Assembly (NCBI GenBank): GCA_003963115.1
Contig: RXJQ01000011.1
Span: forward strand, 1-64,000
Direction: 5' to 3'
Origin: Burkholderiales bacterium
Lineage (GTDB): Bacteria; Pseudomonadota; Gammaproteobacteria; Burkholderiales; Burkholderiaceae_C
DNA: 64,000 nucleotides
Under the pieces are notes generated by a model. That model did no database searches, was not told the origin of the DNA, and was given only the letters and a program-made list of their open reading frames with translations. Shown piece by piece: positions 48,404-57,286 of this stretch (the first letter of the stretch is position 1; the number at the start of each line of letters is the position of its first letter). Both the position numbers and the translations under genes were made by a program.

Positions 48404-49735
48404 CTAAACCTGCCGAACGCGCGCAGCCGGCACCGTCAGCGTGAAAGTCGAGCCTTTGCCTGGCTCACTGCTGATCCGCAACTCGCCGCCATGGCGCTGT
48501 ACCACATGCTTGACGATGGACAAACCCAAGCCCGTGCCGCCCGTGTCGCGTGAGCGGCTGCCATCCACGCGGTAGAAGCGCTCGGTCAGCCGAGGGATGT
48601 GCTCCGGCGCAATGCCAATGCCGCCATCCTTGACGCTGAACTCTGCACCACCACCAGGCAGCAAGGCCCAGCGCACATCAATGGCAGCCCCCTCGGGCGT
48701 GTAGCGAACGGCATTGGAGACCAGGTTGCCCATGGCACTGAGCCACTCGCTCTCGACGCCGGCCATCTCGTAGTGCTTGCCCTGAGTCTCCAGGGTGACA
48801 TGCATGGGATGGCGTTCGCGGGAGAGCGCCTTGCCGTCGGTCTCGATGCGCAACATGAGCGCATCCACATTGATCCACTTGTCCGACGACGGCCTCGGAC
48901 TGCCTTCGATCTGCGCCAGCGTCAGCAAATCGCTCACCAGGATTTGCATGCGGTCAGCCTGCTGCGCCATCAAGGTGATCACGCGCTTGCGCTCGACCTC
49001 GGTCAAAGGCAGGGATCCCAGCGTCTCGATGAAGCCGTTGAGCACGGTCAGTGGCGTGCGGATCTCGTGCGACACATTGGCCACAAAGTCACGGCGCATG
49101 GTGTCGGCGCGCTCGCGTTCGGTGATGTCCTGGGACAGCACGAGCTTGAGGCCATCGCCATAGCTTCTGATCTGGATCTGCAAGACACCCTGGGTGCCAT
49201 GCCCCATCTGGCACTTCACCGCATCACGGTAATCCCCTGCGCTCAGGTATTGCACGAAGGCCGGGTGCCGAACCAGGTTGGTGACGCGCTGCTGAAGATC
49301 ACGCTCTGGGTTCAGGCCAAAGTGGTCCGCAGCCATCGAACTGATCCAGTTGATGTGATCAGTGGCATCCAGCAGCAGCACCCCATTGGGCGAAGCATCG
49401 ATGGCGGACAGGAACTCCTGAAGCCGCGCGCGCTCGTCGGCAATCAGATCGTCCTTGACCTGGATGACACGTTGCACGCGGTGCCCCACCTCGCCCCACA
49501 AGCCGGGCAGCGCGGGCGGATTGGCTTCAGGCGTGCGCAGCCAGTCCAGCAGGCGATGCCCTTTGAGCGTATCGGCCACGGACAAAGCCAGCACGGCCGC
49601 TGCCGCTGCCGTCATGCCCAGCGTCAAGGGGTAACCGATGAACCTGCCGGCCCACCAGCCTGCCAAACCACCTGCCGACGCCGTCAACAGACGAGCGCCA
49701 ACGCGTGACAGCAGCCACGAATCGGTTGAATCCAC
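48404..49735 (-). CDS. phoR: Phosphate regulon sensor histidine kinase PhoR
   Basis: 443 residues. Two N-terminal membrane helices, a linker and a PAS domain (FLSAIDASPNGVLLLDATDHINWIS), then the H-box FVANVSHEIRTPLTVLNGFIETL (His ~ residue 230). N-box (NLVSNAVRYTPEG), G1 (VKDGGIGIAPEHI), F (LTERFYRVDGSRS) and G2 (TGGTGLGLSIVKH) are all present. It phosphorylates PhoB when phosphate is scarce, restrained by PhoU and Pst. The start is the GTG at 49735, without a clear ribosome site. Last gene of the pst-pho operon. Confidence 0.93.
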   Translation of the reverse strand: MDSTDSWLLSRVGARLLTASAGGLAGWWAGRFIGYPLTLGMTAAAAAVLALSVADTLKGHRLLDWLRTPEANPPALPGLWGEVGHRVQRVIQVKDDLIADERARLQEFLSAIDASPNGVLLLDATDHINWISSMAADHFGLNPERDLQQRVTNLVRHPAFVQYLSAGDYRDAVKCQMGHGTQGVLQIQIRSYGDGLKLVLSQDITERERADTMRRDFVANVSHEIRTPLTVLNGFIETLGSLPLTEVERKRVITLMAQQADRMQILVSDLLTLAQIEGSPRPSSDKWINVDALMLRIETDGKALSRERHPMHVTLETQGKHYEMAGVESEWLSAMGNLVSNAVRYTPEGAAIDVRWALLPGGGAEFSVKDGGIGIAPEHIPRLTERFYRVDGSRSRDTGGTGLGLSIVKHVVQRHGGELRISSEPGKGSTFTLTVPAARVRQV

Positions 49736-49766
49736 GATCGATCGCGATGTGTGAGAGAGGGGCCGG

Positions 49767-50465
49767 TCAAGCGGCGTCAGCCACCTGCTGGGTCAAGCGA
49801 TAACCGGCGCCACGCACGGTCTCGATCAACTGCGAGCGCTGCACGGGCGACAAGGCCTCGCGCAGGCGCTTCACATGCACGTCGACGGTCCGCTCTTCGA
49901 TGAACACGTGGTCACCCCAGACACGGTCCAACAACTGCGCACGGCTGTGCACGCGTTCCGGATGGGTCATGAAAAAATGCAGCAGCTTGAACTCGGTCGG
50001 GCCGATCTTGATTTCCTGTTCACCGCGGCAGACACGGCGCGTGGCTGGATCCAGACGCAGGCCCGCGACTTCCACGGCCGAATCCAGGGCCTGAGGTGCC
50101 TTGCGACGCAGCACGGCACGCACGCGCGCCATCAGCTCATGGGTCGAGAAAGGCTTGGTGAGGTAGTCATCGGCGCCCGCATCCAGTCCAGCCACCTTGT
50201 CGACCTCTTCGGCCCGGGCGGTCAGCATGATGATGGGCAGATCACGGGTCCGCGAACCACTGCGCCAACGCTTGGCCAGCGCCAGCCCGGATTGGCCGGG
50301 TAGCATCCAATCCAGCAAGACCAGATCGGGCAGGACCTTGTCGAGCTCGTTTTGGGCATCGTCGGCGTTGTACGCGACTACCACGTCAAAACCAGAATGA
50401 CGCAGATTCAAGGCAATCAACTCGGCGATCGCCATTTCATCTTCAACAACCAGCACACGACTCAT
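49767..50465 (-). CDS. phoB: Phosphate response regulator PhoB
   Basis: 232 residues. The receiver has the acidic pocket EDE, the phosphoacceptor Asp in LVLLDWMLPG, Thr in MLTARAE and Lys in DYLTKPFS. The C-terminal winged helix is OmpR-type: EFKLLHFFMTHPERVHSRAQLLDRVWGDHVFIEERTVDVHVKRLREAL, in pieces. It binds Pho boxes as tandem dimers. Its targets here are the two Pho boxes at 55.2-55.3 kb. GGAG lies ~10 bases before the ATG. Confidence 0.96.
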   Translation of the reverse strand: MSRVLVVEDEMAIAELIALNLRHSGFDVVVAYNADDAQNELDKVLPDLVLLDWMLPGQSGLALAKRWRSGSRTRDLPIIMLTARAEEVDKVAGLDAGADDYLTKPFSTHELMARVRAVLRRKAPQALDSAVEVAGLRLDPATRRVCRGEQEIKIGPTEFKLLHFFMTHPERVHSRAQLLDRVWGDHVFIEERTVDVHVKRLREALSPVQRSQLIETVRGAGYRLTQQVADAA

Positions 50466-50491
50466 GTCTTTGTTCTCCGTGCTTGAAGGGT

Positions 50492-51199
50492 TTACTTGAT
50501 GATGGACTCAACGGCCTCGGGCGTGTTGTGACGCACGTCCGTACCTTTGACGATGTAGATGACCTGTTCAGCCAGGTTCTTGGCATGGTCGCCCACGCGC
50601 TCAATGGCCTTGGCCACGAACACCAGGTCGATGGATGCCGAAATGGTGCGCGGGTCCTCCATCATGTAGGTGATGAGCTTGCGCATCAGGCCATCGAACT
50701 CGGCATCGATCTCGTTGTCGCTCTTGATCACTTCCAATGCGGTCTGCGTGTCGAGACGGGCAAAGGCGTCCAGCGCGCGGCGCAACGAGGCGGTGGCCAG
50801 CGAAGCCTCGAAAGACACATCGCTCACCGGCAGGCGCAGGCGGCTCGACACACCCGTGTTGATCAGGCGCTGCACAGTGCGGGCAATGCGTGCGGCTTCG
50901 TCGCCCACACGCTCCAGGTTGCCGATGGTCTTGGAGATCGCGATCAGCAGGCGCAGGTCGCGGGCAGTGGGCTGGCGGCGGGCGATGATGGTCGACAGGT
51001 CGGCGTCGATGTCCATCTCCATCTGGTTGACGCGCTCTTCGCCTTCCAGCACCTGACTGGCGGTTTCACCACTGAAATGCGTCAGGGCGTAGATGGCTTG
51101 TGCCACCTGCGCTTCGACCAGACCGCCCATTTCCAGCACACGCGTGGAAATGCCGCTGAGCTCGACATCAAACTGGCTGGACAGATGCTTCTCGGTCAT
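50492..51199 (-). CDS. phoU: Phosphate signalling regulator PhoU
   Basis: 235 residues, all helical, with two PhoU repeats. Metal-binding-type acidic motifs lie at NQMEMDIDADLSTIIARRQPTARDLRLLIAISKTIGNLERVGDEA and later ERVGDHAKNLAEQ, in pieces. PhoU links PstB to PhoR and keeps the regulon off when phosphate is plentiful. AAGGAG supports the ATG. It lies 52 bases after pstB. Confidence 0.96.
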   Translation of the reverse strand: MTEKHLSSQFDVELSGISTRVLEMGGLVEAQVAQAIYALTHFSGETASQVLEGEERVNQMEMDIDADLSTIIARRQPTARDLRLLIAISKTIGNLERVGDEAARIARTVQRLINTGVSSRLRLPVSDVSFEASLATASLRRALDAFARLDTQTALEVIKSDNEIDAEFDGLMRKLITYMMEDPRTISASIDLVFVAKAIERVGDHAKNLAEQVIYIVKGTDVRHNTPEAVESIIK

Positions 51200-51251
51200 G
51201 AGGACACTCCTTCAGATACCTGTTTTTTTCAATGAATGAGACAACACACTG

Positions 51252-52037
51252 TCAACCAAAACGGCCGGTGATGTAATCCTCGGTTTCCGTTCGCTTGGGC
51301 TTCATGAAGATGTCGGTGGTGGCGCCGAACTCGATCAGCTCACCCAGGTACATGTAGGCGGTATAGTCCGAGCAACGAGCTGCCTGCTGCATGTTGTGGG
51401 TCACGATCAGCACGGTGTAGTCGTTCTTCAACTCATGGATCAGCTCTTCGATCTTGCCGGTGGAGATCGGGTCCAGCGCCGAGCAAGGCTCGTCCAGCAG
51501 CAGCACCTCGGGCTTGATGGCGATACCGCGGGCAATGCACAGACGTTGCTGCTGACCACCCGAGAGGCCCGAGCCGCTCTGGTTGAGCTTGTCCTTCACC
51601 TCATTCCACAACGCGGCCTTCTTCAAGGCCCATTCCACGCGCTCGTCCATCTCGACGCGAGACAAGGTCTCAAACAGGCGCACACCGAAAGCGATGTTCT
51701 CGTAGATCGACATCGGGAAGGGCGTGGGCTTTTGGAACACCATGCCCACACGGGCGCGGATCAGCGAGATGTCCTCCTTGGTGGTCAGGATGTCCTGGCC
51801 ATCCAGCAGGATCTGGCCTTCAGCGCGCTGCTCGGGATAGAGTTCGAACATGCGGTTGAAGGTGCGCAAAAGCGTCGACTTGCCGCAACCAGATGGACCG
51901 ATGAAGGCCGTCACCTTGTTCTCGGGCAGCTCCATGTTCACGTTCTTGAGCGCGTGGAACTTGCCGTAGTAGAAGTTCAGGTTGCGCACGGCCAGCTTGG
52001 CCTTGGCAGGAGTCGGGGTTTGAACCTTGGCATCCAT
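51252..52037 (-). CDS. pstB: Phosphate ABC transporter ATPase PstB
   Basis: 261 residues. Walker [21 protein letters not shown]-loop [21 protein letters not shown] signature [16 protein letters not shown], Walker [14 protein letters not shown] and the H-loop ([22 protein letters not shown]) are all intact. It powers PstCA. The ATG at 52037 has GGAG ten bases upstream; an in-frame TTG six codons earlier is less likely. Confidence 0.97.
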
Positions 52038-52085
52038 GTGCGGAATCTCCGTCAATCTTTCCGTTATTCTTTGAAGCCGCGCCGA

Positions 52086-52955
52086 TCAGCGCTGGCGGAA
52101 CATCGTGCGGGCGATGATGTTCAGCACCAGCACACCAGCCGTGATCAGGAACACCCCAGCCCACGCCAGCTTCTGCCAGTTCTCATATGGGCTCATCGCG
52201 AATTTGAAGATGGTCACGGGCAGGCTGGCCATGGGCTGGCCCAGGTCCGATGACCAGAACTGGTTGGACAGCGCCGTGAACAGCAGCGGCGCCGTCTCGC
52301 CCGAGATACGGGCCACAGCCAGCAGGATGCCGGTGACCACACCTGCACGGGCCGACTTCAGCGTGATGGTCAGGATCACGCGCCACTTGGGCGTACCCAG
52401 CGCATAGGCTGCTTCACGCAATGCACTGGGCACCAGCGACAACATGTTCTCGGTCGTGCGAATCACCACCGGCACCACGATCAGCGCCAAGGCCAGTACA
52501 CCCGCCCAACCCGAGAAGGAATGGGCCCGAGCCACCACCATAGAGTAGATGAAAAGCCCCACCACGATTGACGGTGCTGACAGCAGGATGTCGTTGATGA
52601 AGCGCGTGGTGCTGCCCAGCCAGCCACTCTGACCGTACTCTGCCAGGTAGATGCCGGCCATCACACCAACCGGCGTGCCGATCAGGGTCGCCAGGCCCAC
52701 CATCATCAGAGAGCCCAGGATGGCATTGGCCAGACCGCCGGCCTCTTGAGGCGGCGGCGTCATCTGCGTGAAGGTGGCCAGCGTCAGACCGTCCAGACCC
52801 AGGTGAACCGTCTCGACCAGGATCCAGATCAGCCAGACCAGGCCAAAGGCCATGGCACCCAGCGACATCGTCAGCGCGATGTAGTTGGTGCGCTTTCGAC
52901 CAGCGTGCTTGCGTGCACGGATGGCTTGCAGCGCTTGTGCTTCTGTGGGACTCAT
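52086..52955 (-). CDS. pstA: Phosphate ABC transporter permease PstA
   Basis: 289 residues with six membrane helices. The permease loop is [32 protein letters not shown]. It pairs with PstC. The ATG overlaps the pstC stop, so it is translationally coupled. Confidence 0.95.
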
Positions 52956-53983
52956 GAACGGGCTCCTTCAGATTTCTTCAGACGGGCGAGCAAGACCTTC
53001 GAGAAGGCCAGCACCACGAAAGTGATGAAGAACAGGACCAGGCCCAGGTAGATCAGCGAGGCCTGGTGCAGGCCCTCGCCTGCTTCGGCAAACTCATTGG
53101 CCAATGCCGAGGTGATGCTGTTGGCCGCTTCGAACACCGACAGCGAATTGAGCTGGTTCATGTTGCCGATCACGAAAGTCACGGCCATGGTCTCGCCCAG
53201 CGCACGCCCCAGGCCCAGCATGATGCCGCCGACCACACCGGTCTTGGTATAGGGCAGCACCACCTTCCACACCACTTCCCAGGTGGTCGAACCCAGGCCG
53301 TAGGCGGACTCCTTCAGCATAGGCGGCGTCACCTCGAACACATCGCGCATCACCGATGCAATGAAGGGGATGATCATGATGGCCAGGATGATGCCAGCCG
53401 ACAGGATGCCGATACCCACGGGCGGGCCGCTGAACAGCGCGCCAATGTAGGGGATGCCTTGCGTGAGGCCTTGAAGCGGCTGCTGCACGTAGGTCGCCAG
53501 CAGAGGCCCGAACACCAGCAGGCCCCACATGCCGTAGACGATGGACGGCACAGCCGCCAGCAACTCCACCGCAATGCCCAGAGGCCGCTTCAGCCAGGCC
53601 GGCGACAACTCGGTCAGGAACATCGCGATACCGAATGACACGGGCACGGCTATCAGCAGCGCAATGAACGAGGTCATCAGCGTGCCGTAGATCATCACCA
53701 GGCCACCGTACTGATCCTGTACAGGATCCCATTCGGTGCGCCACAGGAAGCTCAGGCCATAAGTCTTGATGGCGGGCCATGCGCCCACGATCAGCGAGCC
53801 GATGATGCCCAGCAGCAGCGCCAGGGTCAGCAAGGCCGCAGCCTTGGCCAGGGCGGCGAACACGGCATCGGCCCAGGGGGCGTTCACACGGCGAGCGGGA
53901 GGACTGGTCATGGGGCGTCGCTTGGCACCACGGTCTGGCGGAACATCGGCGCCATCCATGTCGGCGGGAAGAATGGCAGTCAT
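52952..53983 (-). CDS. pstC: Phosphate ABC transporter permease PstC
   Basis: 343 residues. A ~40-residue cytosolic N-terminus precedes six helices. The periplasmic substrate gate and the loop [44 protein letters not shown] (in pieces) are typical of PstC. The ATG at 53983 has GGAGG seven bases upstream, and the longer upstream frame is rejected. A 114-base gap with a weak hairpin separates it from pstS, which could set the usual excess of PstS. Confidence 0.95.
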
Positions 53984-54097: not shown

Positions 54098-55132
54098 TCA
54101 CTTCAGTGCGATGGCCTTGCCCGCCGTGTCCGTGATGCCCGCCCATTGCTTGCGCACCAGATCCTTCACCGAAGCGGGCAGCGGCACGTATTCCAGCTCA
54201 GTAGCCGTCTTGTCACCGTTGGCGTAAGCCCAATCAAAGAACTTCAGCGTGCTGGATGCCTGCGCAGGCTTGTCTTGCGACTTGTGCATCAGGATGAAGG
54301 TGGCACCACTCAGAGGCCAGGCATTCTTGTCGGCCTGGTTGGTCAGCACCTGGTAGAAGGACTTGTTCCACTCGGCGCCGGCAGCAGCAGCCTTGAAGGT
54401 CGCGTCATCGGGCTCGACGAAGTTGCCGGCAGCGTTCTTGATGGACACATGCGACATCTTGTTCTGCTTGGCGTAGGCATATTCCACGTAACCGATCGAG
54501 TTGGGCAGACGCTGCACGAAGGCCGACACGCCCTCATTGCCCTTGCCGCCTGCGCCGGTAGGCCAGTTCACGGCGGTGCCCTCACCCACCTTGGCCTTCC
54601 ACTCTGCGTTCACCTTGGAGAGGTAGTTGGTGAAGATGAAGCTGGTGCCCGAACCATCGGCACGGCGGACCGGTGCGATGGCGGTGTCAGGCAGCGGCAC
54701 GCCAGGGTTCAGCGCCACCAGGGCGGGGTCGTTCCACTTGGTGATCTTGCCCAGGTAGATGTTGCCCAGCACTTCGCCGGTCATCTTCAACTGGCCAGGC
54801 TGGATGCCCTTGATGTTCACCACGGGCACCACACCACCGATCACGGTGGGGAACTGAACCAGGCCTTCCTTAGCCAGTTCGTCGTCCTTCAGGGGCATAT
54901 CAGAAGCGCCAAAGTCCACGGTCTTGGCCTTGATCTGCTTGATGCCAGCACCCGAACCGACAGACTGGTAGTTGATGCGCACGCCGGTGGTGGTGTTGAA
55001 GGCCGATGCCCATTTGGCATACAGCGGCGCGGGGAAGGTTGCGCCGGCGCCGGTGACATCGTCAGCCAGAACACTGCCAGAAACCAGAGCCAGGGCCACA
55101 GCCGCGGCGGTGCGAATCATCTTGAAGCTCAT
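54098..55132 (-). CDS. pstS: Periplasmic phosphate-binding protein PstS
   Basis: 344 residues. Signal peptide (MIRTAAAVALALVSGSVLA) then the phosphate pocket loops GAGATFPAPLYAKW, SVGSGAGIKQI, DFGASDMPL and later RADGSGTSFIFTNYL, TGAGGKGNEGVSAF. It captures phosphate for PstCAB. The ATG at 55132 has AAGG upstream. A Pho box and a -10 element lie 45-80 bases before it. First gene of the pstSCAB-phoU-phoBR operon. Confidence 0.97.
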   Translation of the reverse strand: MSFKMIRTAAAVALALVSGSVLADDVTGAGATFPAPLYAKWASAFNTTTGVRINYQSVGSGAGIKQIKAKTVDFGASDMPLKDDELAKEGLVQFPTVIGGVVPVVNIKGIQPGQLKMTGEVLGNIYLGKITKWNDPALVALNPGVPLPDTAIAPVRRADGSGTSFIFTNYLSKVNAEWKAKVGEGTAVNWPTGAGGKGNEGVSAFVQRLPNSIGYVEYAYAKQNKMSHVSIKNAAGNFVEPDDATFKAAAAGAEWNKSFYQVLTNQADKNAWPLSGATFILMHKSQDKPAQASSTLKFFDWAYANGDKTATELEYVPLPASVKDLVRKQWAGITDTAGKAIALK

Positions 55133-55178
55133 GTGTACGCCTTTCTTGTCATATGACAGACAACTTGCTATGCGGCGG

Positions 55179-55212
55179 ACTGTAGGGCGCGATTGTGACG
55201 CGTATGTGACAT
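55179..55212 (-). promoter_or_regulatory. Pho box and -10 element of pstS
   Basis: On the minus strand two 7-base half-sites, ATGTCAC and GCGTCAC, are separated by four bases (ATAC), the 11-base period of PhoB sites (consensus half CTGTCAT). Ten bases further is TACAGT (55184-55179), a -10 candidate. The same ten-base distance occurs at the divergent fasciclin promoter. Confidence 0.82.
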
Positions 55213-55271
55213 TCATTTTCACAATCGTCACAATAAGACAGTCTATTTGGATCACGTCGTCCATGAATTCG

Positions 55272-55316
55272 ATGTCACGTTTTCGTCACCAAACCGTCAT
55301 GTGACAAACCTATCGT
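55272..55316 (+). promoter_or_regulatory. Triple Pho box and -10 element of the fasciclin lipoprotein gene
   Basis: Three direct half-sites follow each other every 11 bases on the plus strand: ATGTCAC (55272-55278), TCGTCAC (55283-55289) and CCGTCAT (55294-55300), with four-base spacers. Ten bases after the last one is TATCGT (55311-55316). Tandem half-sites standing in place of a -35 are the classical PhoB-activated promoter arrangement. Confidence 0.85.
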
Positions 55317-55373
55317 GCCGGCGTGCTCCACAGATTGTTTCGGAGCAAACACCTCGCACGGAGATCCATCCCC

Positions 55374-55880
55374 ATGACAATGCGTCGCCCCTCGTTCCTG
55401 CTGCTGACCGGCCTGCTGGCCGCCACCCTTTCCGTCACGGCCTGCGCAAGCAGCGAGACGGCTGCCACGCCGGCCAATGTCGTGGCAGCCGCCAGCGCCA
55501 CCCCTGAGCTGAGCACTTTCACCAAGCTGGTCAAGCAGGCTGGCCTGGAGAGCACCCTGGAAGGCTCGGGCCCCGTCACAGTCTTCGCACCGACCGATGA
55601 GGCTTTCAAGGCCCTGCCCGCTGCCACGCTGGACAAGCTGGCGCAGGACCCTGAGCAGCTCAAGGCCCTGCTGGGCTACCACGTGGTGCCGGGTCTGCTG
55701 AAGTCCGCCGACGTGGATGGCAGCAAGCAGATCACCACCTCCACCGGCGCCAAGATGACGGTTTCCAAGGCCGGCAATTTCGTCACCGTGGACGACGGCC
55801 TGGTGACCAAGGCGGACGTGGCCTCCGGCAACGGCGTCATCCACGTGATCGACCGCGTGCTGACACCGCCCAAGAAATAA
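55374..55880 (+). CDS. Fasciclin-domain lipoprotein, predicted Pho regulon member
   Basis: 168 residues. A lipoprotein signal ends at the lipobox V-T-A-C (Cys ~ residue 22). One fasciclin/FAS1 domain follows: ELSTFTKLVKQAGLESTLEGSGPVTVFAPTDEAFKALP, then YHVVPG and a late NGVIHVIDRVLTPP (H1 and H2 FAS1 boxes). FAS1 domains mediate adhesion or surface binding. GGAG stands 12 bases before the ATG. It is divergent from pstS, and a triple Pho box lies in front, so it should be induced by phosphate starvation. Its ligand is unknown. Confidence 0.88.
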   Translation: MTMRRPSFLLLTGLLAATLSVTACASSETAATPANVVAAASATPELSTFTKLVKQAGLESTLEGSGPVTVFAPTDEAFKALPAATLDKLAQDPEQLKALLGYHVVPGLLKSADVDGSKQITTSTGAKMTVSKAGNFVTVDDGLVTKADVASGNGVIHVIDRVLTPPKK

Positions 55881-55910: not shown

Positions 55911-55939
55911 AAAAAGCCGGCCACGCAAGCCGGCTTTTT
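55911..55939. terminator. Bidirectional intrinsic terminator between fasciclin gene and glmM
   Basis: Perfect 11-bp stem AAAAAGCCGGC / GCCGGCTTTTT with a seven-base loop. T-runs lie on both strands, so it ends both convergent transcripts. Confidence 0.9.
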
Positions 55940-55954: not shown

Positions 55955-57286
55955 TCAACTCTTGACAGCTTCCGCCAAGGCCTGTGCGCACTGGTCGGCC
56001 AACAGGCGGTCCTCGGCCTCCACCATCACACGCAGCAAAGGCTCCGTGCCCGACGGCCGGATCAGCACGCGGCCACGGCCGTTGAGCTGGGCCAGCACCG
56101 TCTTCTGGACATCGGCCAGCTTGGGGTTGCCTTTCCAATCCTGCCCGGGTTGCAACCGGACATTGATCAGGCACTGCGGGAACAGGCTCACACCACCCAG
56201 CCAGTCCACCAGACTCTTGCCGCTGCGGGCCACGGCCTGCAGCACCTGCAAGGCGCTGACGATGCCATCCCCCGTGGTGTGACGGTCCAGCGCGATCAGG
56301 TGGCCCGAGCCCTCCCCGCCCAGTTGCCAGCCACGGCATACCAGCTCTTCAAGCACATAGCGGTCGCCCACCTTGGCACGCACGAAATCGATGCCGCGGT
56401 TCTGCAAGGCCAGCTCGACCGCCATATTGGTCATCAAGGTGCCCACAGCCCCCGGCACGGCCTCGCCCTGGTCCAGGCGGTCTGCGACCATCACGTACAG
56501 CAGCTCGTCGCCGTTGTAGAGGCGCCCCTTGGCGTCCACCAATTGCAAACGGTCTGCGTCGCCGTCCAGCGCCACACCGTAGTCGGCACCATGTTCGGCC
56601 ACGGCCTTGATCAGCGCCTCGGGGTGGGTGGCACCCACACCTTCGTTGATGTTCACACCGGTGGGCGAGCAACCGATCGAGATCACCTCGGCGCCCAGCT
56701 CGTGGAACACCTCGGGTGCCACCTGGTAGGCCGCACCGTGCGCGGCATCGACCACCAGCTTCAGGCCCTTGAGCGAGAGGTTCGGCGAGAACGTGCTCTT
56801 ACAGAACTCGATGTAGCGGCCACGGGCATCCTCCAGCCGACGTGCGCGCCCCAGGGTGGACGAATCCACCCACTTGGGCTCGTCACCGAGCGCAGCCTCC
56901 ACGGCCAGTTCCCACTCATCCGGCAGCTTCTCGCCCTTGGCCGAGAAGAACTTGATGCCGTTGTCGGCAAACGGGTTGTGCGAAGCGCTGATCACCACAC
57001 CCAGATTCAGACGCAAGGCGCGCGTGAGGTAGGCCACGCCAGGCGTGGGCAGGGGCCCGGTCAGCAACACATCAACGCCCGCCGAGGCGAAACCGGCTTC
57101 CAGCGCCGATTCCAGCATGTAGCCCGAGATGCGTGTGTCCTTGCCGATCAGCACCGTTGGGCGCTTTTCAGTGCGCCGCAGTACTTGCCCAACCGCATGC
57201 CCCAGCCGCAAAACGAAGTTCGGCGTGATCGGAGCCTGCCCGACGGTGCCGCGGATGCCATCGGTCCCAAAATATTGACGAGCCAT
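55955..57286 (-). CDS. glmM: Phosphoglucosamine mutase
   Basis: 443 residues. The phosphoserine loop [16 protein letters not shown] is near residue 100, the metal loop DGDADR near 240, and the sugar loop EGSGHLI near 325. The C-terminal phosphate loop [15 protein letters not shown] is intact. It makes glucosamine-1-phosphate for cell-wall precursors. It follows folP by 64 bases. Confidence 0.96.

Follow-up and report, generated by a model that had tools for sequence, protein, structure and literature searches.

A fasciclin (FAS1) lipoprotein gene divergent from pstS carries a conserved Pho-type box and is very probably under phosphate control in Burkholderiales

We analyzed a stretch of 64,000 nucleotides (hereafter, the window) from a Burkholderiales genome of 5.38 Mb, the features of which are listed in Table 1. 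The minus strand carries pstS together with the other pst genes, phoU, phoB and phoR. PstS, PhoU (TIGR02135), PhoB (TIGR02154) and PhoR (TIGR02966) all scored above the NCBIfam equivalog cut-offs, such that the genome encodes both PhoB and PhoR within the window itself. PstC was detected as BPD_transp_1, and PhoU, the response regulator and the histidine kinase were also recognized by Pfam, while the identities of PstA and PstB are taken from the ORF sequence and gene order. Two more pstS-like genes were seen in the same genome (G000:C32:159563-160555 and G000:C104:41369-42280, both on the plus strand), sharing 70% and 35% identity, respectively, with the window PstS.

Divergent from pstS stands a gene that had initially been annotated as encoding a FAS1-domain lipoprotein, and this description holds: the product scores 132.3 bits against Pfam PF02469, for which the gathering score is 22, and contains a leader and a lipobox (VTAC). 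It is the only FAS1 match that a whole-genome search returned. The coding sequence most likely starts at the ATG at 55374, meaning that of the span previously assigned to this feature (55272-55880), the part from 55374 onward is coding and the remainder is box and leader. Downstream, a GC hairpin with A/T runs on both flanks (RNA fold of -18 kcal/mol, z -2.27), which is missing from the list of the consensus scan, is likely a bidirectional terminator. As this stable hairpin separates FAS1 from the convergent glmM, the FAS1 gene is probably a single-gene transcription unit.

Table 1 Features of the pstS-FAS1 region (positions are those of the window).
Feature	Position	Strand	Basis
pstC-pstA-pstB-phoU-phoB-phoR	48404..53980	-	Pfam, NCBIfam, ORF order
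pstS, periplasmic phosphate-binding protein	54098..55132	-	NCBIfam NF008171 E 6e-142, TIGR00975 E 4.7e-125
pstS promoter -10 hexamer TACAGT	55179..55184	-	sequence
pstS Pho box GTCAC-N6-GTCAC	55195..55210	-	sequence pattern
Pho half-site 1 (distal), GTCAC	55274..55278	+	sequence
Pho half-site 2 (middle), GTCAC	55285..55289	+	sequence
Pho half-site 3 (proximal), GTCAT	55296..55300	+	sequence
FAS1 promoter -10 hexamer TATCGT, 10 bases past half-site 3	55311..55316	+	sequence, TA in register
FAS1 (fasciclin) lipoprotein gene, 168 aa, predicted exported	55374..55880	+	Pfam PF02469 E 1.4e-38
GC hairpin with A/T runs on both flanks, between FAS1 and glmM	55916..55939	.	RNA fold
glmM, convergent neighbour downstream of FAS1 (context only)	55955..57286	-	TIGR01455 E 3.2e-173

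In the Pho-box model, phosphorylated PhoB bound to tandem half-sites replaces the -35 element and recruits sigma-70 polymerase. The initial annotation had described three half-sites with an exact 11-base period before the FAS1 gene, a spacing of 10 bases between the last of these and the -10 hexamer, and the same geometry at pstS. All three observations were reproduced, with the pattern GTCAY-N6-GTCAY-N10-TA fitting exactly both on the FAS1 side (55285-55312, plus strand) and on the pstS side (55183-55210, minus strand). A sigma-70 scan listed neither of these promoters and gave a different plus-strand site (55206-55234). Two half-sites by themselves are unremarkable in the window, as, with one mismatch allowed, 3 were observed vs 2.16 expected, the three being the pstS and FAS1 sites. 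The strict triple, for its part, has a single occurrence in the 64 kb window, and none of 100 dinucleotide shuffles contains it. When the first base of the middle site could be K, the triple was found twice in the 5.38 Mb genome and the reversed control pattern not at all. Likewise, the two-site pattern followed by N10-TA yielded 10 sites genome-wide and none for the reversed control. Among these 10 are the pstS and FAS1 sites and one directly before a gene for a phosphocholine-specific phospholipase C (TIGR03396, E 1.1e-202), which we take to be an expected type of Pho regulon member.

To follow the box across relatives, a family sample of 120 genomes, including the window's own, was considered. 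A FAS1 match was found in 71 of these genomes, and in 32 the gene is directly divergent from pstS (29 loci, counting that of the window, and three more in G003, G009 and G054); locus L027 starts at its contig end and was not judged for pstS linkage, and G083 carries the gene elsewhere. With so restricted a distribution, the pstS-divergent gene is dispensable. A named scan, from which the best 79 of 568 confirmed loci were kept, contains six loci adjoining pstS among those 79 (L043-L048, from Roseateles, a Burkholderiaceae MAG, a Burkholderiales MAG, Curvibacter, Rhodoferax and Rivibacter), the last of which was excluded as a repeat of L008, the two contigs being equally long. In a class sample of 185 genomes, 11 had a FAS1 match, and among these matches pstS was next to FAS1 only in the window's own genome. 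In the genus sample, 36 of 41 genomes had a match and 30 loci were examined, one of which (L183) begins near a contig end and was not judged.

The sole training set of a position model was 35 pstS-side boxes (minus strand), and the FAS1 sides of 37 regions were then scored with it; significance was assigned from 200 dinucleotide shuffles per region at a threshold of p<=0.01. The FAS1-side box passed in 36 of the 37 regions, the sole exception being L020 (p 0.025). The median score on the FAS1 side was 17.3, as compared to -12.8 for the shuffles (99th percentile 3.1); the higher pstS-side median of 35.4 should be read with the knowledge that this side is the model's training set. TA is in register in 34 of the 37 FAS1-side regions, although it should be noted that the model itself favours TA, and a strict two-site pstS box is present in 36 of 37. 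When L020 is set aside, 24 of 36 regions have an exact [GT]TCA[CT] as the distal half-site, a motif that never appeared at the eight control offsets tried in each region; the middle half-site reads TTCAY in 16 and the proximal half-site is GTCAY in 34. Within the genus, all 27 further loci adjoin pstS, with box scores of 12.7-34.8, so that together with the window and L003, 29 of 29 judgeable loci present both a pstS neighbour and a box. The full triple ([GT]TCAY twice, then GTCAY) is found in 25 of these 29 loci and in 22 of 35 loci of other genera.

The initial annotation had made its reading depend on the half-sites being kept in close relatives. In a footprint alignment of the window with the five genus relatives of highest FAS1 identity, 12 of the 15 columns of the three FAS1 half-sites are invariant vs 1 of 14 in the spacers, and no refutation was found. 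The pstS half-sites are invariant in 10 of 10 columns and the -10 area (55309-55316) in 6 of 8, as compared to 88 of 186 for the remaining region. Given the shuffles, the genome counts, the 36 of 37 regions and the footprint, we rejected a chance origin of the repeats and, considering also the triple and geometry statistics and the conservation across genera, regard chance or a non-PhoB promoter feature as extremely improbable, even though pairs of half-sites with one mismatch are not rare.

A palindrome, GTCAYRTGAC, was also observed twice in the window, at 55148-55157, just before the pstS start, and at 55296-55305, overlapping the proximal FAS1 half-site. In register with the -10 hexamer on the FAS1 side, it is present in 16 of 29 genus loci and 1 of 35 loci of other genera, and near the pstS start in 10 of 29 and 0 of 35, respectively. 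It may be the site of another regulator or an inverted PhoB half-site.

That the box might be a general property of FAS1 genes was ruled out with a set of 91 FAS1 genes not adjoining pstS. Their upstreams score at most 6.1, and none of the 91 reaches the lowest passing score of 8.7, where it should be considered that the best match in a protein of several domains may fall on a later domain, so that some stretches are not true promoters, and that L050 and L128 are apparently one locus counted twice. At the level of the order, 4 of 29 loci besides the window's own carry a box (L193-L196); L197 scores 5.6 and the other 24 score less, with low values for L198 (-4.3) and L199-L221 (at most -1.1). 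Further loci of the order, L222-L226, score at most 0.5.

As the FAS1 gene is usually directly divergent from pstS, with both boxes lying in one short region, the plus-strand half-sites could be extra PhoB sites for pstS, with FAS1 being a bystander that happens to face them. Loci in which FAS1 lies away from this position bear directly on this reading. In L125 (G083), FAS1 has the 5' end of glmM as its divergent neighbour and a box that scores 14.1; in L193 (G400, from another family of the order) and L195 (G353, from the same family as L193), the boxes score 20.2 and 24.3. In each of these three loci, none of 500 shuffles scores as high, and the sole pstS found sits on another contig. In L196 (G398), which represents a third family, the FAS1 gene lies behind pstB in the same orientation, with a weak box of its own (9.0, 1 of 500 shuffles). 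L193 and L195 have TA in register, and L125 and L196 have it out of register; L194, from the same genus as L193, is pstS-linked and scores 21.1. As the box stays with FAS1 in L125, L193, L195 and L196, half-sites that serve pstS only are not the main reading. By these counts, conservation of the box extends from the genus to further genera of its family and, as single loci, to two more families of the order.

The reverse case, pstS without a FAS1 neighbour, lends the bystander reading some weight. In four of eight such loci, out of the many that the family sample contains, the strand facing away from pstS scores at least 8.7 (L140 16.4, L139 12.3, L137 10.0 and L141 8.8, with 0 of 200 shuffles each). 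In L137, TA is out of register and the next gene upstream, glmM, runs in the pstS direction. In the other three, however, TA is in register, and in L139 a gene for a Peripla_BP_6 binding protein faces the box, which may thus have a client of its own. A Peripla_BP_6 gene occupies the same slot in L136, with a weaker site (3.3), and L140 and L141 contain a divergent ORF opposite pstS. Where relatives lack a pstS-linked FAS1, the gene immediately before pstS can be glmM, oriented the same way (L135, L137, L138). Away-facing boxes in loci without FAS1 suggest that Pho control at the position opposite pstS may extend to other genes, or that some of the sites may serve pstS. With the box retained where pstS is distant, we consider it improbable that FAS1 is only a bystander. 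The proposal of the initial annotation, namely, that the FAS1 lipoprotein is wired to PhoB, is strongly supported by the comparison, both through conservation and through the box being kept with the gene away from pstS, and we hold control of this gene by phosphate and PhoB to be highly probable on these sequence grounds.

Turning to the protein, the lipobox corresponds to residues 21-24, behind the leader. Of 37 orthologues searched with a permissive pattern, 36 contain a lipobox, two of them when read from a non-ATG start. In E. coli, lipoproteins without Asp at position +2 are sorted to the outer membrane. Both the window protein and most of the orthologues listed have Ala at position +2, from which we infer a putative outer-membrane location, on the understanding that the E. 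coli rule may not hold in Burkholderiales. The AlphaFold model (mean pLDDT 89) matches, according to Foldseek, the FAS1 domains of TGFBIp, periostin, MPT70, CupS and a R. sphaeroides protein, and the solved FAS1 relatives include the NDH-1 subunit CupS, phycobilisome linkers and astaxanthin carriers. The protein has a single FAS1 domain, and the median net charge in the clade of proteins linked to the box (Pho-type) is 0.

In a tree of 89 FAS1 domains, a single branch (SH-aLRT 99) separates the 47 Pho-type proteins from the rest, and L125, L193, L195 and L196, in which FAS1 is away from the pstS-divergent position, are among the 47. This tree is based on few columns and has weak inner forks, and its rows were chosen by hand, with 5 of 28 new genus loci included and L027, L040, L062, L072 and L128, all present in a first tree, left out. 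In that first tree, the 37 pstS-linked proteins clustered with L027 and L125 (99). Residues L46, S47, L52, F136 and T138 are common to the Pho-type proteins (70 Pho-type vs 116 other proteins). We read the Pho-type FAS1 proteins as one orthologous group that was drawn into the Pho regulon and for the most part remained next to pstS.

Pho-like boxes were also observed elsewhere in the window's genome. Three exosortase-family genes (L146/L154, L151/L161 and L153/L162), the copies of which are 79-80% identical, have a Pho-like box about 60 bases before the start, reading GGTCATCG..CTGTCATCGA..G.CCATAG in two copies, with CTTG in the third, and scoring 13.1-13.9. A fourth gene of this family (L150/L164) has a box of 16.6 and a PF04185 phosphoesterase gene as its divergent neighbour; the box of a fifth (L163) scores 7.7. 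Both copies tested, L146 and L150, passed TIGR04178. The six exosortase loci from other genomes (L155-L160) score at most -3.3. In addition, L147 and L152 are similar small ORFs, each with a Pho-like two-site box directly before the start; the 104-aa ORF of L147 presents a weak match, below the cut-off, to an Xre/MbcA/ParS C-terminal domain. A link between PhoB and PEP-CTERM is part of the background on floc-forming Burkholderiales; a literature search for PEP-CTERM and PhoB did not find it. A broader phosphate-starvation surface programme in Burkholderiales, to which the Pho-specific FAS1 clade would belong and, in this species, also several exosortase-family genes with Pho-like boxes, is in our view rather unlikely, although if such a programme exists, phosphate limitation would directly remodel the outer surface or matrix.

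The sequence of events that we propose for the FAS1 gene follows the Pho-box model. At low phosphate, PhoR would phosphorylate PhoB, which would bind the three direct half-sites as tandem dimers and, from its place 10 bases upstream of the -10 hexamer, substitute for a -35 element and recruit sigma-70 polymerase to FAS1. The separate divergent box would drive pstSCAB-phoU-phoBR. After export, the FAS1 product would receive its lipid at the lipobox Cys and reach the outer membrane by sorting, where its single FAS1 domain would probably serve as a protein- or glycan-binding module with which the starved cell might hold onto surfaces or matrix.

As FAS1 domains serve adhesion, assembly and ligand carriage, adhesion is only one option, and a role in attachment or matrix, suggested by the fold and the lipobox only, is one that we put forward tentatively, at somewhat under even odds. 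The protein could instead be a Pho-regulated envelope helper that, for example, partners PstS or a porin at the outer membrane, carries a ligand, or has a structural role in an envelope low in phosphate. Such a function comes close to an even chance: it agrees with the solved FAS1 relatives being CupS in NDH-1, phycobilisome linkers and astaxanthin carriers, with the single domain and neutral median charge of the clade, and with phosphate uptake being the genomic partner. The same data, however, fit an adhesin, and in a recent review, the mycobacterial MPB83 and MPB70 are termed adhesins (PMC12757957).

Should phosphate control of the FAS1 lipoprotein be confirmed, the bacterial FAS1 family, widespread but of no assigned function, would gain a defined inducing signal, in a large and environmentally important order. 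Low phosphate and phoB would provide a simple handle on the function of a bacterial FAS1 lipoprotein. Such control would also point to a direct connection from phosphate limitation to the cell surface in Burkholderiales.

The E. coli PhoB-dependent Pho-box promoters of the pstS and phoA type were taken as reference. The FAS1 promoter resembles these in its tandem half-sites with an 11-base period, in the 10 bases before the -10 hexamer and in having no -35 element, but differs in that a FAS1 lipoprotein is controlled and in that the middle half-site is often TTCAY. We know of no FAS1 lipoprotein that is a Pho-regulon product in Burkholderiales, nor of Pho control for two other bacterial FAS1 proteins of solved structure considered here, namely, the R. 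sphaeroides fasciclin-like protein (1w7d) and CupS (2mxa). These two share the FAS1 fold with the window protein (E 7.2e-34 and 2.4e-31, respectively; Foldseek about 1e-9), whereas the Pho clade has the residues of its own given above. MPB70 and MPB83 (the latter presumably also a FAS1 protein) likewise share the fold, with the MPT70 structure 1nyo matching at a profile E of 3.1e-28 and a Foldseek E of 4.1e-9; they belong to another phylum, however, and the window protein falls in its own clade, in trees that contain no MPB70/83 rows.

The initial annotation had considered a link between a FAS1 lipoprotein and phosphate starvation to be undescribed. A search of the open-access literature for 'fasciclin' by name found no report of a link to phosphate or Pho in Burkholderiales. 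Beyond this order, the claim has to be narrowed, as the mycobacterial surface proteins APA, MPB83/MPB70 and PstS1 are described, in a 2025 review, as adhesins that are upregulated under phosphate starvation (PMC12757957). With MPB70 being a FAS1 protein, a FAS1-phosphate link would thus not be wholly new, and if the mycobacterial rise is of the same kind, FAS1 would have been recruited to phosphate starvation more than once. The portions available of five further papers (PMC9870883, PMC6584798, PMC4338792, PMC6515357, PMC4937211) contain no tie between FAS1 and phosphate starvation. In one of these, a phoB prediction concerns all4050 and not the FAS1 protein all3797 (PMC4338792). The Anabaena FAS1 protein all4894, which is reported to be stress-expressed and has been proposed to aid aggregation, resembles the present case in its FAS1 domain and stress-linked expression but is cyanobacterial and, in the text available, comes with no stated Pho link (PMC6584798). 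Set beside these systems, the Pho regulon itself is known, and what appears to be new is a Burkholderiales FAS1 clade with a conserved Pho box of its own.
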